Virus record (IMG/VR): IMGVR_UViG_3300049995_000166
Span: 1-20,424 of that record
DNA: 20,424 nucleotides
Direction: 5' to 3' (one strand)
From: a virus
Shown here: positions 5,012 through 19,735 of the stretch, piece by piece
How the letters are laid out: each line of letters starts with the position of its first letter
Numbering within the stretch: position 1 is the first letter of the stretch
Position numbers and translations under genes: made by a program
The notes under the pieces: model-generated
Databases searched by the model: none
Told to the model about the DNA's origin: nothing
What the model saw: the letters and a program-made list of their open reading frames with translations, nothing else

Positions 5012-6517
5012 CTAACGATTCGATTGAACCCTCAAATCCACAGTTTCCGCAGAAGAAACCGCCCCAATTAAGCTAATCGGATGTGGATTAATCCAGAACA
5101 GGTACACTTTTGGCTCCGCAAGGACCGCCAAGCGGCTGAGGACCTTCGCAACCACGTCGAGACTTTGCTTTTCGATCCAATTTTCGAATTCGGGTTTGGT
5201 GACGAAGGGCCGTTTGCAGGCCTGCAGCCTCTTGAAATATCCCACGCCAAGTAGTGCCTTCTTTACCCTTTCCACTTCTTCCCTGCTCAGTTTTATGAGT
5301 AACTCATAATTCGACCGTGCGCTGGCCAACAAGTAGGGCTTGAACCCCAATCCCTCGAGACTCTTAACAGCGTTAATAACTGGTTCGGGCGGCTGACGAT
5401 TAAGGATTCTCCGCATTCCCGCCTTCTCGAAGAAGGGCGAGTACTGGGCCATAACCGCCATAGTCTCTATGTAGGGCCTGTTGACAAGGGGCAATGTTTC
5501 TTCGACAAGCCTTGCCCCTAACCCTATGCTGCGGTACTTCGGGTGCAGGATCACCCGGCTAATCGTTGTCAGGCTCTCGTTAACTTCTGCAAGGGACAGC
5601 TTCTTTCCAACGGCTTCTTTGCGACCGCTGCAGTTGATAGGGGGATAACTGTAAAGTATGACCCCTACGGGTTCGTTGTCGTCCCGCTTTAGGGCAAAGA
5701 TTTTCATGGTGACAGGTCGCGTCTCAGGGTTGCGGTAATGGAACGGCGCCAACGCCTCGTAGTCTTCCAGCGTCCCTTCCTCGATCCGTAGGCCACGGGC
5801 GACGCTGCACACCACCCTTTCCCTGTTAGGGTAATAGCGGACCTCGAGACGTTTACCCCAGCCCTTGTGAATATGCACAGAAGGGGCAAGATCCTCAAGC
5901 AAGTCAGTGTGCGTCGTAGCCACGATAACCGCCTTCCCTTCCCGCCTAGCGTGCTTCTGCACGTTGAAGGCCACGATCTTCGCGGTTTCCCTGTCAAGCG
6001 TTGCGCAGAACTCGTCCATGACCCACCACTGCTTTCCACTTTCGATTAGCTTAGCAATCCGATATCGGTACCGCTGGCCATCGCTGAGCTCCCTGTACCT
6101 CCTTAGAAACAGGTAAGCGTCGTTAAGTCCAACCCTGCTCAGAAGCTCGAGGGCTTCTTTAAGGTCCCTGCCAACGGTCTCAACGATCGGCTTGTTAGGG
6201 TCGGGGTTGGCGCCGTCGACGTTGACCACTTCTCCCCCAAGGTCCTTTTCGATTGCCCTAAGCAGGACGCTTTTTCCGCTCCCGGACTCCCCCGTGATGT
6301 AGACCACGTCCTTGGGACCGATCTTGAACTCTGCGTCGTCGTAAACCACGTACTCTTTGTAATCGTCGACGCCTAAGCCGAAGGCTTCAGCGACTCCAAT
6401 GGTCCTCGGCGTGATCTCCGTTCTAGTTTGGAACTGAACGTGGATCTTGAACTTCCCGGAGCCGCGGTCGTAGATGCGCCTGAACTTGCGGATCCTGAAC
6501 CCTTCACACCTTTTCAT
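5012..6517 (-). CDS. ABC-type ATPase fused to a GNAT acetyltransferase domain (COG2401-like)
   Basis: The 501-residue protein has an ABC-type ATPase in its N-terminal half: Walker A GESGSGKS (76-83), signature LSDGQ (144-148), Walker B WWVMDEF (164-170) and an H-loop His near 203 in TTHTDLLEDL. No transmembrane segments are present, so it is not a transporter subunit by itself. The C-terminal half contains a GNAT-like acetyl-CoA motif, ISRVILHPKYRSIGLGARLV (319-338), inside a region of alternating strands and helices. This combination corresponds to COG2401, an ABC ATPase fused to a predicted acetyltransferase, known mostly from archaeal genomes and of unknown function. ATG 6517 overlaps the end of a small membrane protein gene. 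A role in virion assembly, packaging or host modification is possible because it lies just after terminase, but that is inference. Confidence 0.85.
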   Translation of the reverse strand: MKRCEGFRIRKFRRIYDRGSGKFKIHVQFQTRTEITPRTIGVAEAFGLGVDDYKEYVVYDDAEFKIGPKDVVYITGESGSGKSVLLRAIEKDLGGEVVNVDGANPDPNKPIVETVGRDLKEALELLSRVGLNDAYLFLRRYRELSDGQRYRYRIAKLIESGKQWWVMDEFCATLDRETAKIVAFNVQKHARREGKAVIVATTHTDLLEDLAPSVHIHKGWGKRLEVRYYPNRERVVCSVARGLRIEEGTLEDYEALAPFHYRNPETRPVTMKIFALKRDDNEPVGVILYSYPPINCSGRKEAVGKKLSLAEVNESLTTISRVILHPKYRSIGLGARLVEETLPLVNRPYIETMAVMAQYSPFFEKAGMRRILNRQPPEPVINAVKSLEGLGFKPYLLASARSNYELLIKLSREEVERVKKALLGVGYFKRLQACKRPFVTKPEFENWIEKQSLDVVAKVLSRLAVLAEPKVYLFWINPHPISLIGAVSSAETVDLRVQSNR

Positions 6518-11079: not shown

Positions 11080-12483
11080 CTAAAAGAAATATTGTTTTCC
11101 TTTTCCGCCGCCGCCGCCATATTGTCCTCCTCCGCCGCTTGTGCCTAAACTCGTGCTTGCAACTAACGGTAATGACGAAGCGGCAATTGCGAGAATCGTG
11201 CCACCCTTACTTTCAACCCTTATCTTTTTAGTTAATGCCCCCTCACTTGTCGCCTCGATGACGACACTTTTTAGGCTGGATTGAACCTTTTGGGCAATCA
11301 TTTCAACGTTCTCTCCGCTTACTGAACCCTCAACGTTGACAATTGGACCATCAATGTTAATCGTCACGTAGGTATCGCCTCCTCCTCCACTACCGCTAAC
11401 TCCTCCTCCGCCGAAATTTAACTCAGGTGCCTCAATGCCCTTCATGGCTTTGTCGAGAAACTCAAAAGATTCGATGAGTCCTGTGCTTGGCGGCTGGCCT
11501 ACGGTTTTGTAAAGGTCAATCATGCTTTGCGTGTACGAGTCAATCATGCCGGAGGATGTGGTTGCGTTCGAGCCTATGGTGTTGAACCATCCCGCCACGG
11601 AAGTCAACGAGTCGGCGAGCCACTTTAATCCGTCTATGAAGGGTTGGACGACGTTGTTCCACAGCCACGAGAGAGCGTCAGATACGGCGTCAATCGCGGG
11701 CTTAAAAATGTTCATCAACGTCGCCCCGATCTGGTCGACGGCGTTGCGGAAAGGCTCGCAAGTTGCATAGGCAACAGCGAAAATGGCAACCAAGGCGCCA
11801 ATCGCCGTGATAACAAGCATGATGGGGTTTGCGTTCATCGCAGCATTCAAAACCCACTGAGCAGCAGCCGAAACCTTTGCGGCAACAGCGTGAGCGTAAT
11901 GCGACACAGTCGACATATCTAGACCAAGTTTTTCCGCAACCAAACTTAACGTGTGCATTTTCCTGATTTTGTCGAGGCTGTCAATCATCGTAATGGCGGT
12001 CGGAATGACGGAGATGGCGGATTGAACCATTGTTTCGTTCAGGTTGCCCTGCACCATGTCTGCACGTTCAACCGCAACCTGGTAACGTTCCTGAGCCAAC
12101 TGAAGATCCTTGGAGGCAGAGACCGCTTGCTCACTTTCAACGCCATATTTCTCAATCATGGCATTATACTTCTTTTGGGCGTCCTCAACCGAATTAAGGC
12201 TTGATTTAACGGCGAGGTTCGCCCGGTCCACGCTGACTGTCATGTCCTGAACCCTGTCATAAGCATTGTAAAGGGCGAAGGCGGAAGTTGCGACTCCGCT
12301 GAAACCAGTGACGACTCCCCTGAGATTTGTAGTCATCTGTGTGTGTGCAGCCTCAACCCCCTGCGTGGCCTTTTGGACTCCCCCCATGGATTCTTCGGCA
12401 GAGGATTGAACTTTCTCGAAGACCGCGCTTGCATCGTCAACCGCCTTAATTGTGGCTGTTAACTCAGGCAAAGCAAAACTCAT
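11080..12483 (-). CDS. tail tape measure protein
   Basis: The frame is open to ATG 12504, but GAGGAGG placed eight bases before ATG 12483, together with an ATGA overlap with the upstream gene, makes 12483 the start (467 aa). The N-terminal 150 residues are helical and heptad-rich. A hydrophobic stretch follows in the middle (IMLVITAIGALVAIFAVAYA, then a Trp-rich helical part LSWLWNNVVQPFIDGLKWLA). A Gly-rich hinge (GGGGVSGSGGGG) leads to a C-terminal beta/helix segment (VTINIDGPIVNVEGSVSGEN). This is the usual tape-measure layout, and the gene lies after the chaperone pair. At about 1.5 angstrom per residue, a rule from siphoviruses, the tail would be roughly 70 nm. Confidence 0.85.
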   Translation of the reverse strand: MSFALPELTATIKAVDDASAVFEKVQSSAEESMGGVQKATQGVEAAHTQMTTNLRGVVTGFSGVATSAFALYNAYDRVQDMTVSVDRANLAVKSSLNSVEDAQKKYNAMIEKYGVESEQAVSASKDLQLAQERYQVAVERADMVQGNLNETMVQSAISVIPTAITMIDSLDKIRKMHTLSLVAEKLGLDMSTVSHYAHAVAAKVSAAAQWVLNAAMNANPIMLVITAIGALVAIFAVAYATCEPFRNAVDQIGATLMNIFKPAIDAVSDALSWLWNNVVQPFIDGLKWLADSLTSVAGWFNTIGSNATTSSGMIDSYTQSMIDLYKTVGQPPSTGLIESFEFLDKAMKGIEAPELNFGGGGVSGSGGGGDTYVTINIDGPIVNVEGSVSGENVEMIAQKVQSSLKSVVIEATSEGALTKKIRVESKGGTILAIAASSLPLVASTSLGTSGGGGQYGGGGGKGKQYFF

Positions 12484-12839
12484 TCGCCGCGCCTCCTCAA
12501 CCATTCCTCAACCTTATCAAGCAACGCTTCTTTGAGCATGGAAAGGTTCCACAACAGAGGAGGCCCAAGAAAGGCTCTTGGCGCCATTCGGCTTGTCCCG
12601 TACTCGACGTAGGGCGCGTAGTAGACTCGGCTGCCTACACGGTATTCGCCTTCTCCCCCTTGCCACATGATGCTCCTCTGAAGGGTGCCTGTTTTGACTG
12701 GAACAATGTTTTTGGCGTCCGTGACGACCTTCTCGAGGTAGAACTCCATGGCTTCTGCTAGGGGTTCTTTCATGCCTTGGATTTGGCTTAGGGCTTTCAC
12801 GAGTTTGTCTACGCCTTCAACCTTGATGCTCAACGCCAT
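12480..12839 (-). CDS. HK97 gp10-like head-tail/tail completion protein
   Basis: The 119-residue protein matches the HK97 gp10 pattern: an N-terminal helix (LVKALSQIQGMKEPLAEAME), then VPVKTGTLQRSIMW near 46-59, then VGSRVYYAPYVEYGTSRMAP near 68-87, followed by RAFLGPPL and a C-terminal helix. These proteins act at the neck or tail terminus during head-tail joining. In most siphoviruses the gene precedes the major tail protein; here it lies between the tail-chaperone pair and the tape measure. It overlaps the chaperone extension frame by 23 bases and the tape measure start by four. Confidence 0.85.
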   Translation of the reverse strand: MALSIKVEGVDKLVKALSQIQGMKEPLAEAMEFYLEKVVTDAKNIVPVKTGTLQRSIMWQGGEGEYRVGSRVYYAPYVEYGTSRMAPRAFLGPPLLWNLSMLKEALLDKVEEWLRRRGE

Positions 12840-13065
12840 TCTGTTTACTCTCCGCTTTAGGCAGGATCTGTGCGAGTTCGCTTAGGTCGTGGACTTCTTT
12901 GGTTTCTCCTTGGACTGCCGGTGTCGACAATTCAGCGTCGTAGGCTATGCTTTCCAGCCAGAACGCCGCTTCCCGCCACGTCATCCTCCTGATTTCCGCC
13001 TTGCTGAAGCCTAGCCGCTTCAAGAGGTAGATTGCTCTGCCGACGGGCGAACGGGCGAAGTCTCT
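12817..13065 (-). CDS. tail assembly chaperone extension frame, reached by -1 frameshift
   Basis: This frame has no good start: the first candidate is TTG 13023, but the coding-like sequence extends upstream of it without a start codon (RDFARSPVGRAIYL before LKRLGFSKAEIRRMTW). It is in the -1 frame relative to the preceding gene and joins it exactly at the heptamer 13065-13071. The fusion would be 186 aa: 104 residues of the first frame plus 82 from this one. The extension is helical and includes a Trp-rich segment (MTWREAAFWLESIAYDAELS), like the T part of phage GT-type tail chaperones, which recruits tail-tube or tape-measure subunits. An independent protein from TTG 13023 (68 aa) is the alternative. 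Confidence 0.75.
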   Translation of the reverse strand, partial: RDFARSPVGRAIYLLKRLGFSKAEIRRMTWREAAFWLESIAYDAELSTPAVQGETKEVHDLSELAQILPKAESKQNGVEHQG

Positions 13066-13376
13066 AAAGGGCTCGTCTGGAAAAGACTTGGCACGATATC
13101 ATTGACCACTTTCAGCACGATGCGCAGCGGAATCTTGGTCTTCACAGCTTCAAGCGTAACCGAAGGGTCAGCCTTGCTCCACGCCTTAAAGAAGGCTTTA
13201 ACACTCAGGTCAAGCGGGTTCTGGTCCTTTGTTTGGTAGATTTCGGCGAAGTCTTCCACAGTCAAGTCGCAGTACGGAATGTTTCCGCCTAGCTCCTCAA
13301 CGTAGATTTGGTGTTGCATGAGTTTCTCTGTCTTTGCGAGGACCTTAGCGAACGTCAGCTGTTTCTCCTTGGTCAT
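13020..13376 (-). CDS. tail assembly chaperone (G-like, upstream frame)
   Basis: The 118-residue product starts at ATG 13376, 13 bases after a tail-tube-like gene, and precedes the tape measure region, the standard place of lambda G-type tail chaperones. It is mostly helical: LTFAKVLAKTEKLMQHQIYV, a loop with PYCDLTVEDFAEIYQTKD, then a helical region ending VLKVVNDIVPSLFQ. The last 14 residues (ETSPVRPSAEQSTS) are low complexity, as expected if the functional extended form leaves this frame earlier. A slippery heptamer at codons 103-104 would yield the longer GT-type product. Such chaperones coat the tape measure protein until tail tube polymerisation. Sequence identity to known families was not established; position and frameshift carry the call. 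Confidence 0.75.
   Translation of the reverse strand: MTKEKQLTFAKVLAKTEKLMQHQIYVEELGGNIPYCDLTVEDFAEIYQTKDQNPLDLSVKAFFKAWSKADPSVTLEAVKTKIPLRIVLKVVNDIVPSLFQTSPLETSPVRPSAEQSTS
13065..13071 (-). promoter_or_regulatory. slippery heptamer C_CCT_TTA for programmed -1 ribosomal frameshift
   Basis: On the minus strand the sequence CCCTTTA is placed in frame as C CCT TTA: CCT is codon 103 and TTA codon 104 of the 13020-13376 gene. This matches the X_XXY_YYZ rule for -1 slippage (CCC and TTT after slipping). The next codon in the new frame is AGA, leading into the chaperone extension. The original frame ends 15 codons later. No clear stimulatory hairpin or pseudoknot was identified by eye. Confidence 0.7.
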
Positions 13377-13388
13377 TCCTGTTCACCC

Positions 13389-13820
13389 TTAGGCTATGGC
13401 TACGCTTGCCGACTTAGCTCTGAACCCGGTGGTTATGTATGCTGGCGCGTTCTTTGGAGACGCCACTGAAGGCTGCGGGAAGATGACGCCTGTGAGTGAA
13501 ACGGTGATTTTGCTGCCTGTTCCTCCGTCGTATTCTAGGGTCATGGTGTACTCTTCGAATGTCGTCTGAAGCGGCGCTGATCTCTCGAGCTGGATTTTGC
13601 CGTCCGCTCCAACCTTGAAGCCTTCCTTGATTGTGCCTCCGAACTCTTTCAGTAGAGGCGCCCAGATCTGTATGGTGTCGTACCCTATGGTGTCGATGCC
13701 TTCGATGTTCTGTTTAGGCTCGAAGGTTACCTCTTGCGCTATGAAGCTGCCTTTGTCTCCTGGCGTTGTTTTGGTGATTTTCACCGCAACGTTTTTTCCG
13801 ACATACACGTTTGCGCTCAT
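13389..13820 (-). CDS. major tail (tube) protein paralogue, short form
   Basis: ATG 13820 is preceded by GGAGG. The 143-residue protein is beta-rich and shares a strongly conserved block with the adjacent longer gene (from AQEVTFEPKQNIEGIDTIGY at about 28-47, then DTIQIWAPLLKEFGGTIKEG), and a similar C-terminus (VIFPQPSVASPKNAPAYITT). The size, strand content and place immediately before the tail chaperone and tape measure genes fit a siphovirus tail tube subunit. It is about 70 residues shorter than its neighbour because it lacks an inserted N-terminal region. Which paralogue forms the tube is not determinable here. Confidence 0.75.
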   Translation of the reverse strand: MSANVYVGKNVAVKITKTTPGDKGSFIAQEVTFEPKQNIEGIDTIGYDTIQIWAPLLKEFGGTIKEGFKVGADGKIQLERSAPLQTTFEEYTMTLEYDGGTGSKITVSLTGVIFPQPSVASPKNAPAYITTGFRAKSASVAIA

Positions 13821-13850: not shown

Positions 13851-14483
13851 CTACGAAATCGTCTTTGCAGTCTGCGCCCTGAACGGCGTGACTATGAAGA
13901 CTGGTGCATTCTTGGGGCTTGGGATGCTGCCTTCTGGAAAACGAACATTGTCCAACCCGACTTTAACGATTGAGCCTCCCTGATTCCAGGTGACGATTAT
14001 GCCGAACGGCTCAACAGTCGTGGTTCTAACAGCTTCTATCCTGTTCAGTTGCTCAAGACTGTTCTTTAAAACTTCCTTGATCGAGCCGGAATATTCTTTT
14101 AGCAGAGGAGCCCATATTTGGATTGTGTCATAGCCTAAAGCGTCTATTCCTTCGATCGCCTGTTTCGGCTCGATCGTGATTTCTTGAGCGTAGTAAGGCG
14201 AGAGATTATATCGATATGATATGTAAACTGTTTTACCAGTGTCTCCAGCAGCAAAAGTCACGACTTTCGTAGTGTCGTTGACGGCGGTCGGCGTAATCGT
14301 GTTGCCGGATCCGTCAACCACGCTAACATGAGCCACCTCATTCGCAACACCATCCTGATCTCTATCGCTTATTGGACCGTTGTTTAAAGTTACCTGGTAT
14401 GGCGAGCCAGGAATAGTTTTTTGCTCTCTATCTATCGGAGTTTGAATTATGATTGATACGTCTTTTCCAACATACGCGCTCAT
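13851..14483 (-). CDS. major tail protein paralogue, long form with inserted domain
   Basis: ATG 14483 follows GGAGGTTTC. The 210-residue protein shares the block AQEITIEPKQAIEGIDALGY (99-118), DTIQIWAPLLKEYSGSIKE and the C-terminal PSPKNAPVFIVTPFRAQ with the next gene. Between the common N-terminus (MSAYVGKDVSI) and this block lie about 70 extra residues with strand-rich character (HVSVVDGSGNTITPTAVND, VVTFAAGDTGKTVYISYRYN) and a DRDQDG motif at 40-45 followed by E49, resembling a calcium-binding loop. The insert may form an Ig-like domain projecting from the tail. The two genes are 30 bases apart and arose by tandem duplication. Confidence 0.75.
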   Translation of the reverse strand: MSAYVGKDVSIIIQTPIDREQKTIPGSPYQVTLNNGPISDRDQDGVANEVAHVSVVDGSGNTITPTAVNDTTKVVTFAAGDTGKTVYISYRYNLSPYYAQEITIEPKQAIEGIDALGYDTIQIWAPLLKEYSGSIKEVLKNSLEQLNRIEAVRTTTVEPFGIIVTWNQGGSIVKVGLDNVRFPEGSIPSPKNAPVFIVTPFRAQTAKTIS

Positions 14484-16146: not shown

Positions 16147-17040
16147 TCACTCTATCAGCATTCTATAGAATTCTTTGCCTGACTGATTGGCGTAATACAA
16201 ATATTCCTGGTCATCTTCCTTTACAAAAACTAGATTGTGGCAACCCACACCCGTTCCTGAAACATAAGGAAAAGTCCCTACAGGATACATTTTGTCTTCA
16301 TCAAGATGATAACAATAAACTCTCTGAGTCGCAGTTTTCTGGATGTATATTTTGTTTAAGCCGTCATAAGCAACGCCCGTTCCAGTCGAGAAAGTTTCTG
16401 TTTTAGGTGTATAAGAAATATCTGCACTCCATAATCCAGTGCTTATCGTGAAGTAATAGATGGATGACGAACCGCCTCCTCGCAGATAGTATATTCTGTC
16501 TGGATTAAAGCCATAAGTCCAAAGTAAAGCGCATCCTGCTCCAGGAACTGCGGGCAGGACGGGACTCATCTCCGTCCAAGAATCGTTTAAAATTGAGTAG
16601 CGGTACCACTTCGTTGAATTATTACCTATTAGGTAGATGTAGTCGTCGTTGCCTTGAGCGTTATATTCCGTACACGTATGCACCATACCAGAATCGATTG
16701 ACCATTCACTGGTCAAACCTGGGAAGGAAGTGGAAACGAAATACCAGCCTTCCCTAGCAAATTCATAGAAACAAAGAAAAGCATACGGACTTAAATTAAA
16801 TGGGGCAAATAGCCAGATTCCCTTTCTGCTCGGGTCGTTCATGTGCACTATTATTCTGTCAGTTCCTAGTACCATTGATGTAAGTACTATATAGGAGTCC
16901 GTCCATCGGTCGTACCGCCAGAAGGTAGCGGGAGTGCCTCCTAAAAATACATAAATAAACCTGTCGGTTCCTCTTAAGTCATTGAACACGCAGGTTCCTA
17001 GGAGTGCATTCGCTGGTAGAAACCTCAGCCACTGAGACAT
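16147..17040 (-). CDS. Kelch-like beta-propeller protein, second copy
   Basis: ATG 17040 (297 aa) aligns with the paralogue's conserved WLRF segment; TTG 17064 is an alternative with eight extra residues. The sequence consists of repeated four-strand units with aromatic, Asp and Gly positions (RFIYVFLGGTPATFWRYDRW, NDDYIYLIGNNSTKWYRYSI, LNKIYIQKTATQRVYCYHLD), characteristic of Kelch or similar propellers. It ends YLYYANQSGKEFYRMLI, nearly the same as its neighbour. There is no signal peptide. In viruses such propellers are often surface or receptor-binding parts. Its place between capsid and connector genes, in tandem with a diverged copy, suggests a virion decoration or adhesin; that role is inference. 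Confidence 0.7.
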   Translation of the reverse strand: MSQWLRFLPANALLGTCVFNDLRGTDRFIYVFLGGTPATFWRYDRWTDSYIVLTSMVLGTDRIIVHMNDPSRKGIWLFAPFNLSPYAFLCFYEFAREGWYFVSTSFPGLTSEWSIDSGMVHTCTEYNAQGNDDYIYLIGNNSTKWYRYSILNDSWTEMSPVLPAVPGAGCALLWTYGFNPDRIYYLRGGGSSSIYYFTISTGLWSADISYTPKTETFSTGTGVAYDGLNKIYIQKTATQRVYCYHLDEDKMYPVGTFPYVSGTGVGCHNLVFVKEDDQEYLYYANQSGKEFYRMLIE

Positions 17041-17050
17041 TGCCAAATGT

Positions 17051-17998
17051 TTAGAACCACCCAATCAGCATTCTGAAGAATTCGGTTCCAGACTGTCTTC
17101 TATAGTACAGGTATGTTGCTCCGTCGTCGGTTTTAATGAAGGCTAAAGCGTCTCCTGCCAGCGCTGTGCCTGATGTGTATGGATACATTCCTCCAGGATA
17201 CATCTTGTTTTCGTCAAGTTGGAAGTAATATTGTCTGTGGGTTGCGTCTTTCTGTATGTATATTCTGTTCAAGGTGTCATAAGCACACGAACTTCCCGTT
17301 GTGAAGGTTTCTGTTCCTGGGTAATAAGTCACTGCTGTCCATCCTGGCGTCCCGATTGAGTAATAATAGAGGGTTGCGGTTGCGCCGCCTCTAAATGCAT
17401 ACAATCTATCTGCATTAAATCCCCAAGTCCAGCAAAGGTGGCACCCTGCGCCAGCCGTAGCCGTAATTGGATTTGCCATGACGGACCAGGAGTTTCCTGC
17501 AATAGAATACCGATAGAAGGGAGTTGCGCCGTTTCCTATCAAATATATGTAGTCATCGTTTCCAGCAACGTTGTAAGTTGAGCAAGTATGAACCAGGGAG
17601 CCATCAGTGCCCCAAATGGCTGGCAAAGTCGCTACCGAACGAGAAGTCCAAACATTAGTGGCAATGTCGTAATAGCCGAAGCCGCATTGAGTGGTGTAAC
17701 CGTTTAGCAGCCAAATCCTGCCCTCAGCCCCTTGGGAAGGGTCGAAAACCATGCAGGTTCCAGCACCCCAAGTTCCAGAACCTCCCAAAGCACCGGGAGA
17801 TGCCAATAATTCAAAGGAATCTGTCCAAGTGTCGTATCTATAAAAAGCGGCAATTCCAGCCATGATATAGATAAAACGGTTGGTGCCTCTTTCATCAGTA
17901 CAAATACAATGACCCGCAGCAGAGGTCACAGGGATAAATCTTAACCATTGAAAATTCGGCAGGTCAATTCCTTTTTTCAAATTTAACGTTACAGGCAT
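17051..17998 (-). CDS. Kelch-like beta-propeller protein, first copy
   Basis: ATG 17998 follows GGAGG by ten bases. The 315-residue protein has six or so repeats with the pattern strand, Gly, strand, Tyr (RFIYIMAGIAAFYRYDTWTD, GRIWLLNGYTTQCGFGYYDI, NDDYIYLIGNGATPFYRYSI, LNRIYIQKDATHRQYYFQLD), each pairing an xIYxx strand with a Tyr-rich strand as in Kelch propellers. It is a full-length paralogue of the following gene (shared WLRF start, TETFTTGSS centre and QSGTEFFRMLI end). The N-terminal 15 residues (MPVTLNLKKGIDLPN) are extra and may be an attachment segment. A surface or host-recognition role is likely but inferred. Confidence 0.75.
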   Translation of the reverse strand: MPVTLNLKKGIDLPNFQWLRFIPVTSAAGHCICTDERGTNRFIYIMAGIAAFYRYDTWTDSFELLASPGALGGSGTWGAGTCMVFDPSQGAEGRIWLLNGYTTQCGFGYYDIATNVWTSRSVATLPAIWGTDGSLVHTCSTYNVAGNDDYIYLIGNGATPFYRYSIAGNSWSVMANPITATAGAGCHLCWTWGFNADRLYAFRGGATATLYYYSIGTPGWTAVTYYPGTETFTTGSSCAYDTLNRIYIQKDATHRQYYFQLDENKMYPGGMYPYTSGTALAGDALAFIKTDDGATYLYYRRQSGTEFFRMLIGWF

Positions 17999-18817: not shown

Positions 18818-19735
18818 TTAATTCGTTCCTCTTGCGACCGCTTTAGTTCTAAGAATGCCGACGCCTATACGCTCTGAGCCAAAGACGCCGTACATGCCTC
18901 TGCCGGTGTCTTCGTAAGGCTTCGTGTTCACGTCTCTTCTGAGAAGCATTACTCCAGCGGAACTGAGGTCTATCGCCAAACTTTTGGTCAGCAAAGAACT
19001 TCTAACGAAGGTGACACCGAGAGATGTGTGATATACGACGCCGTTCCTCATGTTGGAGGGGTCACGGTATAGACTACTGAGGAAGTTGTCGAGTTTCATT
19101 AGTCCACCGAATTCGGCTGCCTTCATAGCCACAACAGTAGTGGAGAAGTCCTCTGCGTCCACAGCTGCAATCAGGTCTACTATTTGTGCCCAAGTTGGCG
19201 CTCCTGCGGTGATTGTCTTTTCTGCTCCTCCTGCAAGGCTTGCTGCGGCTATGCCGTTGTATGCTGCTATGACTTTCTCGGTTTCATACCTTCCTATTGC
19301 TCTTCCAATTGCTTCTATCTGCCAGCGAAGAACGTCCCAACTTGCGTCTTCAACGAAACTTTCTGTCCATTCCTTCTTGCTGTTGATTTCTTTGTCCGCC
19401 TTGACGTCTTGCATTTCGGGTCTGGCGCCTGTGTCATAGGCGGGTCCTTCGCCTTCCCAAGCGTAGGCTCTAATTTCCTTCGGGAATCGTTCAAGAGCGT
19501 TCTTTGTCGGGATTACTTTTATGATTTCTCTGCCGATTAATTTAGGCTGAGCAGCAGCCCAAACAACGTCTTGCACGGCGCCTAAGGCTCCGGCGACATC
19601 GCTGTAAAGTCCTTCTTTGATGAGTTTCTTGTATACTGGATTATCCTGTGCCATGGCTACATATTTGTTCCAGACTGTCTCGCCGAGTTCTGAGTCTTTC
19701 AAGATTGCTTCTTTAAAGGTTAATTTGTTGTCCAT
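18818..19735 (-). CDS. major capsid protein (HK97 fold)
   Basis: The 305-residue protein has an N-terminal helical region, then the strand-turn E-loop region AYAWEGEGPAYDTGARPEMQ (about 91-110), the long spine-helix region EDASWDVLRWQIEAIGRAIG, and a P/A-domain part with AAGAPTWAQIVDLIAAVDAE-like character, finishing in RGMYGVFGSERIGVGILRTK, which is the beta-rich end typical of HK97-type capsid proteins. It lies immediately after a decoration-like gene and before the tail genes. No separate long scaffold (delta) domain is visible, so a separate scaffold or none may be used. ATG 19735 sits one base after the decoration-like gene. Confidence 0.82.
   Translation of the reverse strand: MDNKLTFKEAILKDSELGETVWNKYVAMAQDNPVYKKLIKEGLYSDVAGALGAVQDVVWAAAQPKLIGREIIKVIPTKNALERFPKEIRAYAWEGEGPAYDTGARPEMQDVKADKEINSKKEWTESFVEDASWDVLRWQIEAIGRAIGRYETEKVIAAYNGIAAASLAGGAEKTITAGAPTWAQIVDLIAAVDAEDFSTTVVAMKAAEFGGLMKLDNFLSSLYRDPSNMRNGVVYHTSLGVTFVRSSLLTKSLAIDLSSAGVMLLRRDVNTKPYEDTGRGMYGVFGSERIGVGILRTKAVARGTN

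Follow-up and report, generated by a model that had tools for sequence, protein, structure and literature searches.

Predicted ribosomal frameshifting in the tail assembly chaperone genes of putative Bathyarchaeia tailed viruses

The tail module and its slippery site

The window, that is, the whole 20,424-nucleotide stretch of viral DNA analysed here (IMG/VR record IMGVR_UViG_3300049995_000166), carries on its minus strand a tail module with the following gene order: two tail-tube paralogues, a tail assembly chaperone, an ORF in the -1 frame, a tail-completion gene similar to HK97 gp10 and the tape measure gene. The features on which the analysis rests are as follows.

18818-19735, minus strand: major capsid protein (phrog_10; 88% identity in L002), used as query for relatives and host
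13851-14483, minus strand: putative tail tube protein, paralogue 1, assigned by similarity to paralogue 2
13389-13820, minus strand: putative tail tube protein, paralogue 2, just before the chaperone gene (phrog_290 minor tail protein, E=0.0048)
13020-13376, minus strand: probable G-like tail assembly chaperone in frame 0, 118 aa plus stop codon, assigned from its ORF, its homologues (L206, L207, L045 and L110-L112), its fold and phrog_4976
13065-13071, minus strand: slippery heptamer C_CCT_TTA, found by sequence, with an identical heptamer in the identical place in L112, L207, L209, L210 and L211
12817-13098, minus strand: -1 open region encoding a second, T-like domain, read from 13071 to 12820 with the stop at 12819-12817, identified with a profile of the relatives' T domain and with hhalign
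12480-12839, minus strand: tail completion protein, HK97 gp10-like (phrog_5, E=1.4e-19), whose start overlaps the 3' end of the -1 ORF
11080-12504, minus strand: short tape measure protein of 474 aa (best E value among PHROG tape measure families 4e-16; 41-50% identity to the tape measures of Bathyarchaeia proviruses L130 and L131)

According to the initial annotation, the tail tube and tape measure genes flank the chaperone pair. This position stands, with the amendment that one gene, for tail completion, separates the pair from the tape measure gene. The adjacent tail-tube paralogues are 54% identical over their shared part, and the upstream copy has an insertion of ~60-70 residues near its N terminus. 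Elsewhere on the minus strand, two tandem related proteins of 305-315 aa with repeats of an RFIY/DDYIYLIG motif, probably β-propellers, are encoded between capsid and tail genes (16147-17998), and a 501-aa protein combining an ABC-type ATPase domain with a GNAT acetyltransferase domain adjoins TerL (5012-6517).

The 118-aa protein is assigned as a probable chaperone from profile and fold matches. Profile matches to phrog_4976 (tail assembly chaperone) are weak and recurrent (E=0.068 for the window, 0.0052 for L206 and 0.031 for L111). The AlphaFold2 model (mean pLDDT 70.5) shows order up to about residue 98; the remainder, from approximately the shift site onward, has very low confidence. In the PDB, the model comes closest to 2ob9, the tail assembly chaperone of HK97, both chains of which ranked first, although the likeness is weak (E=0.45, probability 0.69, TM 0.44-0.48, 12-13% identity). 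Among predicted viral structures, several of the model's closest neighbors carry a tail assembly chaperone annotation, one of them from the haloarchaeal virus ChaoS9.

On the minus strand, positions 13071-13065 read CCCTTTA (TAAAGGG at 13065-13071 on the plus strand) in the register C_CCT_TTA, with CCT and TTA forming codons 103 and 104 of the 118-aa ORF (13376-13020; local sequence ...ACG AGC CCT TTA GAG...), just as the initial annotation had it. Between 13098 and 12820 the -1 frame contains no stop, a stretch of 93 codons, or 84 counted from CCC and 82 past the slip, the last in agreement with the length originally given. The predicted fusion would thus be 186 aa long (104 + 82). Past the heptamer, the -1 frame has its first possible start codon at TTG 13023, a distance of 16 codons, and ahead of that codon it encodes 'RDFARSPVGRAIYL'. 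As a baseline for chance, we counted 223,636 in-frame codon pairs from these viruses. Heptamers of the form X_XXY_YYZ with Y=A/T make up 0.30% of them, which corresponds to a 7% chance of finding one in the 26-codon overlap, and CCCTTTN makes up 0.0076%, corresponding to 0.2%. Taken alone, the heptamer is suggestive but weak evidence for frameshifting; it is the comparison with relatives that convinces. A search for a 3' stimulatory RNA structure in the window and 12 relatives gave no consistent signal (z of ~0.2 for the window), and an Rfam search returned no match.

Relatives, probable host and conservation of both frames

When the chaperone, the -1 frame and the tail tube were used as queries against the phage collection, neither DNA nor protein comparison yielded a usable match, and scans of viral contigs with the chaperone or the tail tube as single proteins matched nothing. 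The tail-tube alignment matched two Candidatus Bathyarchaeota genomes. A peptide-pattern scan of genomes based on the capsid alignment found no match, unlike the later capsid profile search, which matched 56 of 257 Bathyarchaeia genomes, in some cases on contigs >1 Mb. The TerL of the window is 52% identical to that of L154, which comes from a contig of 2.15 Mb. The window's tape measure gene and the three genes that follow match two proviruses of a single Bathyarchaeia genome (L130 and L131). These homologous virion genes in Bathyarchaeia chromosomes point to Bathyarchaeia as the host, in line with the archaeal tailed virus assumed at the outset. Several genomes (G001, G078, G101 and G105) have three to five copies of the capsid protein each, so poly-lysogeny seems common in Bathyarchaeia. 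Relatives found in IMG/VR through the capsid protein share head genes (88% for L002; 62-67% for L003, L004 and L056-L058), and their tail modules are often different.

The chaperone homologues, drawn from Bathyarchaeia genomes and viral contigs, are ~25-40% identical and keep a second ORF in the -1 frame. The break between the frames is marked by C_CCT_TTA in five loci (L112, L207, L209, L210 and L211), C_CCT_TTT in the closest homologue (L206), C_CCT_TTC in L111, T_TTT_TTA in L110, L198, L201, L180, L199 and L203, and T_TTT_TTG in L181 and L200. Heptamer type and frame relation are thus kept, with two exceptions: L045 has the -1 ORF without a canonical heptamer, and the chaperone homologue in L179 (genome G089) lacks a second frame upstream of the tape measure gene, so the frameshifted domain has possibly been lost there.

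The second frame itself is conserved. A T-domain profile, built from the relatives' second-frame domains with the window left out and run against all 261 window ORFs of at least 40 aa, has a single good match, which is the -1 ORF at 12820-13098 on the minus strand (E=7e-5, top of the 261; the next is at 0.26). Alignment of the relatives' T domain to this ORF with hhalign gives a probability of 92 and E=7e-7. Within the set formed by L112, L207, L209, L210 and L211, substitutions at the three codon positions number 78/53/283 for frame 0 upstream of the site and 45/14/120 for frame -1 downstream of the frame-0 stop. The third-position excess thus passes from frame 0 to frame -1, and the -1 pattern is already dominant in the short dual-frame stretch (6/4/14). 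Judged by this periodicity, both frames are under coding constraint.

Could the second frame be a separate gene, translationally coupled to the first and started internally, either at TTG 13023 (giving 68 aa) or at an ATG at -1 codon 29, with the heptamer a coincidence? The window does contain that TTG, and some A/T-type heptamer is expected in the overlap with the 7% probability given above. However, the window residues that precede TTG 13023 already align with the relatives, in line with the earlier impression that the frame is coding ahead of this codon. Moreover, of 12 homologues checked, 10 have no ATG, GTG or TTG in the second frame before codon 32 of ~60, and L181 has none at all, while the start of the conserved domain is close to the slip site. 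Since heptamers also recur at the same place in all homologous lineages but two, we regard independent initiation as very improbable. Less credible still is the reading that the true gene is one ORF, broken by decay or by a mistake in sequencing or assembly. The source is indeed a metagenomic contig of 20.4 kb, but in independent contigs and genomes of diverged sequence the two frames are likewise offset by -1 and meet at a slippery site, and the constraint acts on both frames. Equally hard to credit is a fusion made by RNA-polymerase rather than ribosome slippage, which is conceivable for those relatives whose sites are A_AAA_AAN or T_TTT_TTA runs, whereas the window and its nearest homologues have CCCTTTN, where runs of only three to four identical bases are too short for usual transcriptional slippage.

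Chaperone families with -1 and +1 second frames

A second chaperone family occurs in Bathyarchaeia proviruses. It has a conserved -1 domain with the motif FRLCKEFGWT, and a shift heptamer lies upstream of it in 22 of 22 loci (L117, L119, L123, L132, L134, L136, L137, L140, L142, L145, L146, L149, L150, L152-L155, L157, L158, L162, L171 and L172), being T_TTT_TTA in 16 and A_AAA_AAN in the other 6. The viral L058 has T_TTT_TTA before the same -1 domain, which together with the proviruses makes 23 further -1 loci. In L003, A_AAA_AAA stands immediately before the stop.

In a third family (L002, L004, L056, L057, L062-L073 and L116), the second frame is +1. The junction reads [TC]TT TTT CG[TCG] in all 14 distinct loci, i.e., a +1 site of the type UUU_CGN, against a background in which TTT accounts for 48% of Phe codons and CGN for 62% of Arg codons; the substitution periodicity switches to +1. 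The homology of second domains across the three families (window, L058 and +1 types) was not established by profile comparison, which gave a probability of 47% for the window against the L058 type and <1% for the others. Candidate frameshift pairs were dismissed as chance if they lay outside the tail genes or overlapped over very long stretches.

The head region and β-propeller-like genes of L002 are nearly identical to those of the window (88% for the capsid protein), and its tail module has no detectable similarity. On sequence comparison, this is a sharp exchange of modules, which would also have swapped -1 for +1 frameshifting. Since -1 and +1 chaperones occur in such closely related viruses, both directions serve the same gene position. 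Frameshifted chaperones are probably near-universal in the tailed viruses of Bathyarchaeia, with a direction that can be swapped within the tail module (-1 at C_CCU_UUA versus +1 at UUU_CGN at 88% capsid identity). The ribosomes of these hosts would thus support both directions, mostly at UUU-containing sites, among them U_UUU_UUA of the HIV type and UUU_CGN of the influenza PA-X type.

Predicted mechanism, precedents and implications

It is highly likely, as the initial annotation proposed, that the chaperone gene of the window is expressed with a programmed -1 frameshift fusing its two frames, giving a 118-aa G-like and a 186-aa G-T-like product. The homologues keep the two-frame layout and the heptamers and mostly lack an early start, which disfavors independent initiation and assembly error alike. 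We infer from this comparative evidence that shifting occurs; its low efficiency and the λ-like roles of the products are predictions. In this scheme, the 118-aa gene would encode the G-like tail assembly chaperone of a Bathyarchaeia tailed virus, and the majority of ribosomes would terminate at the gene's own stop. A minority would slip one base back at C_CCU_UUA, with tRNA-Pro in the P site re-pairing from CCU to CCC and tRNA-Leu in the A site from UUA to UUU, and would continue in the -1 frame to 12820 to produce the G-T-like fusion. By analogy with phage λ, the shared N-terminal part may coat the tape measure protein, the extra C-terminal domain may recruit tail-tube subunits, and a low ratio of long to short product would be required.

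Frameshifting in tail chaperones is a well-established trait of tailed phages; for the bacterial siphoviruses, it was reportedly described by Xu, Hendrix and Duda in 2004. The window differs from phage λ, whose gpG/gpGT heptamer is G_GGA_AAG rather than C_CCT_TTA, in having the tail-completion gene between chaperone pair and tape measure, and no sequence homology to λ G or T is detectable at the thresholds used. The UUU_CGN motif of the +1 chaperones listed above is common to influenza A PA-X and amalgavirus, which concern other genes in another domain of life and are irrelevant to the window's own -1 site.

The initial annotation also held that a clean archaeal example would show the strategy to be shared across domains. 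This had in fact been reported before, in haloarchaeal viruses, with -1 tail-chaperone frameshifting in HVTV-1, HCTV-1, -2 and -5 and Hardycor1 and +1 in HSTV-2 and the HF1 group (PMC5009743, PMC8211752, PMC7911831, PMC7230728). Haloarchaeal viruses thus resemble those studied here in having predicted chaperone frameshifts in either direction, and the +1 motif of the HF1 group, TTT-CGC (PMC7230728), is the same TTT-CGN found in our +1 relatives. The hosts, however, differ: Halobacteria there, and here, by our reading, Bathyarchaeia (Thermoproteota). Among the papers covered, those dealing with viruses or proviruses of Bathyarchaeia or with archaeal Caudoviricetes (PMC10848311, PMC11705971, PMC8651126) do not discuss chaperone frameshifting for these viruses. 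While the phenomenon itself was already known, what is new here is a well-supported set of frameshifted tail chaperones in another archaeal phylum.

Annotators should be aware that gene calls in the genomes of these viruses miss the second domain or split it. The approximately fifty natural sites, with several types of shift site and both directions, offer material for testing frameshifting by archaeal ribosomes. Tail-chaperone frameshifting would extend beyond haloarchaeal viruses to those infecting a class of Thermoproteota that is largely uncultivated.
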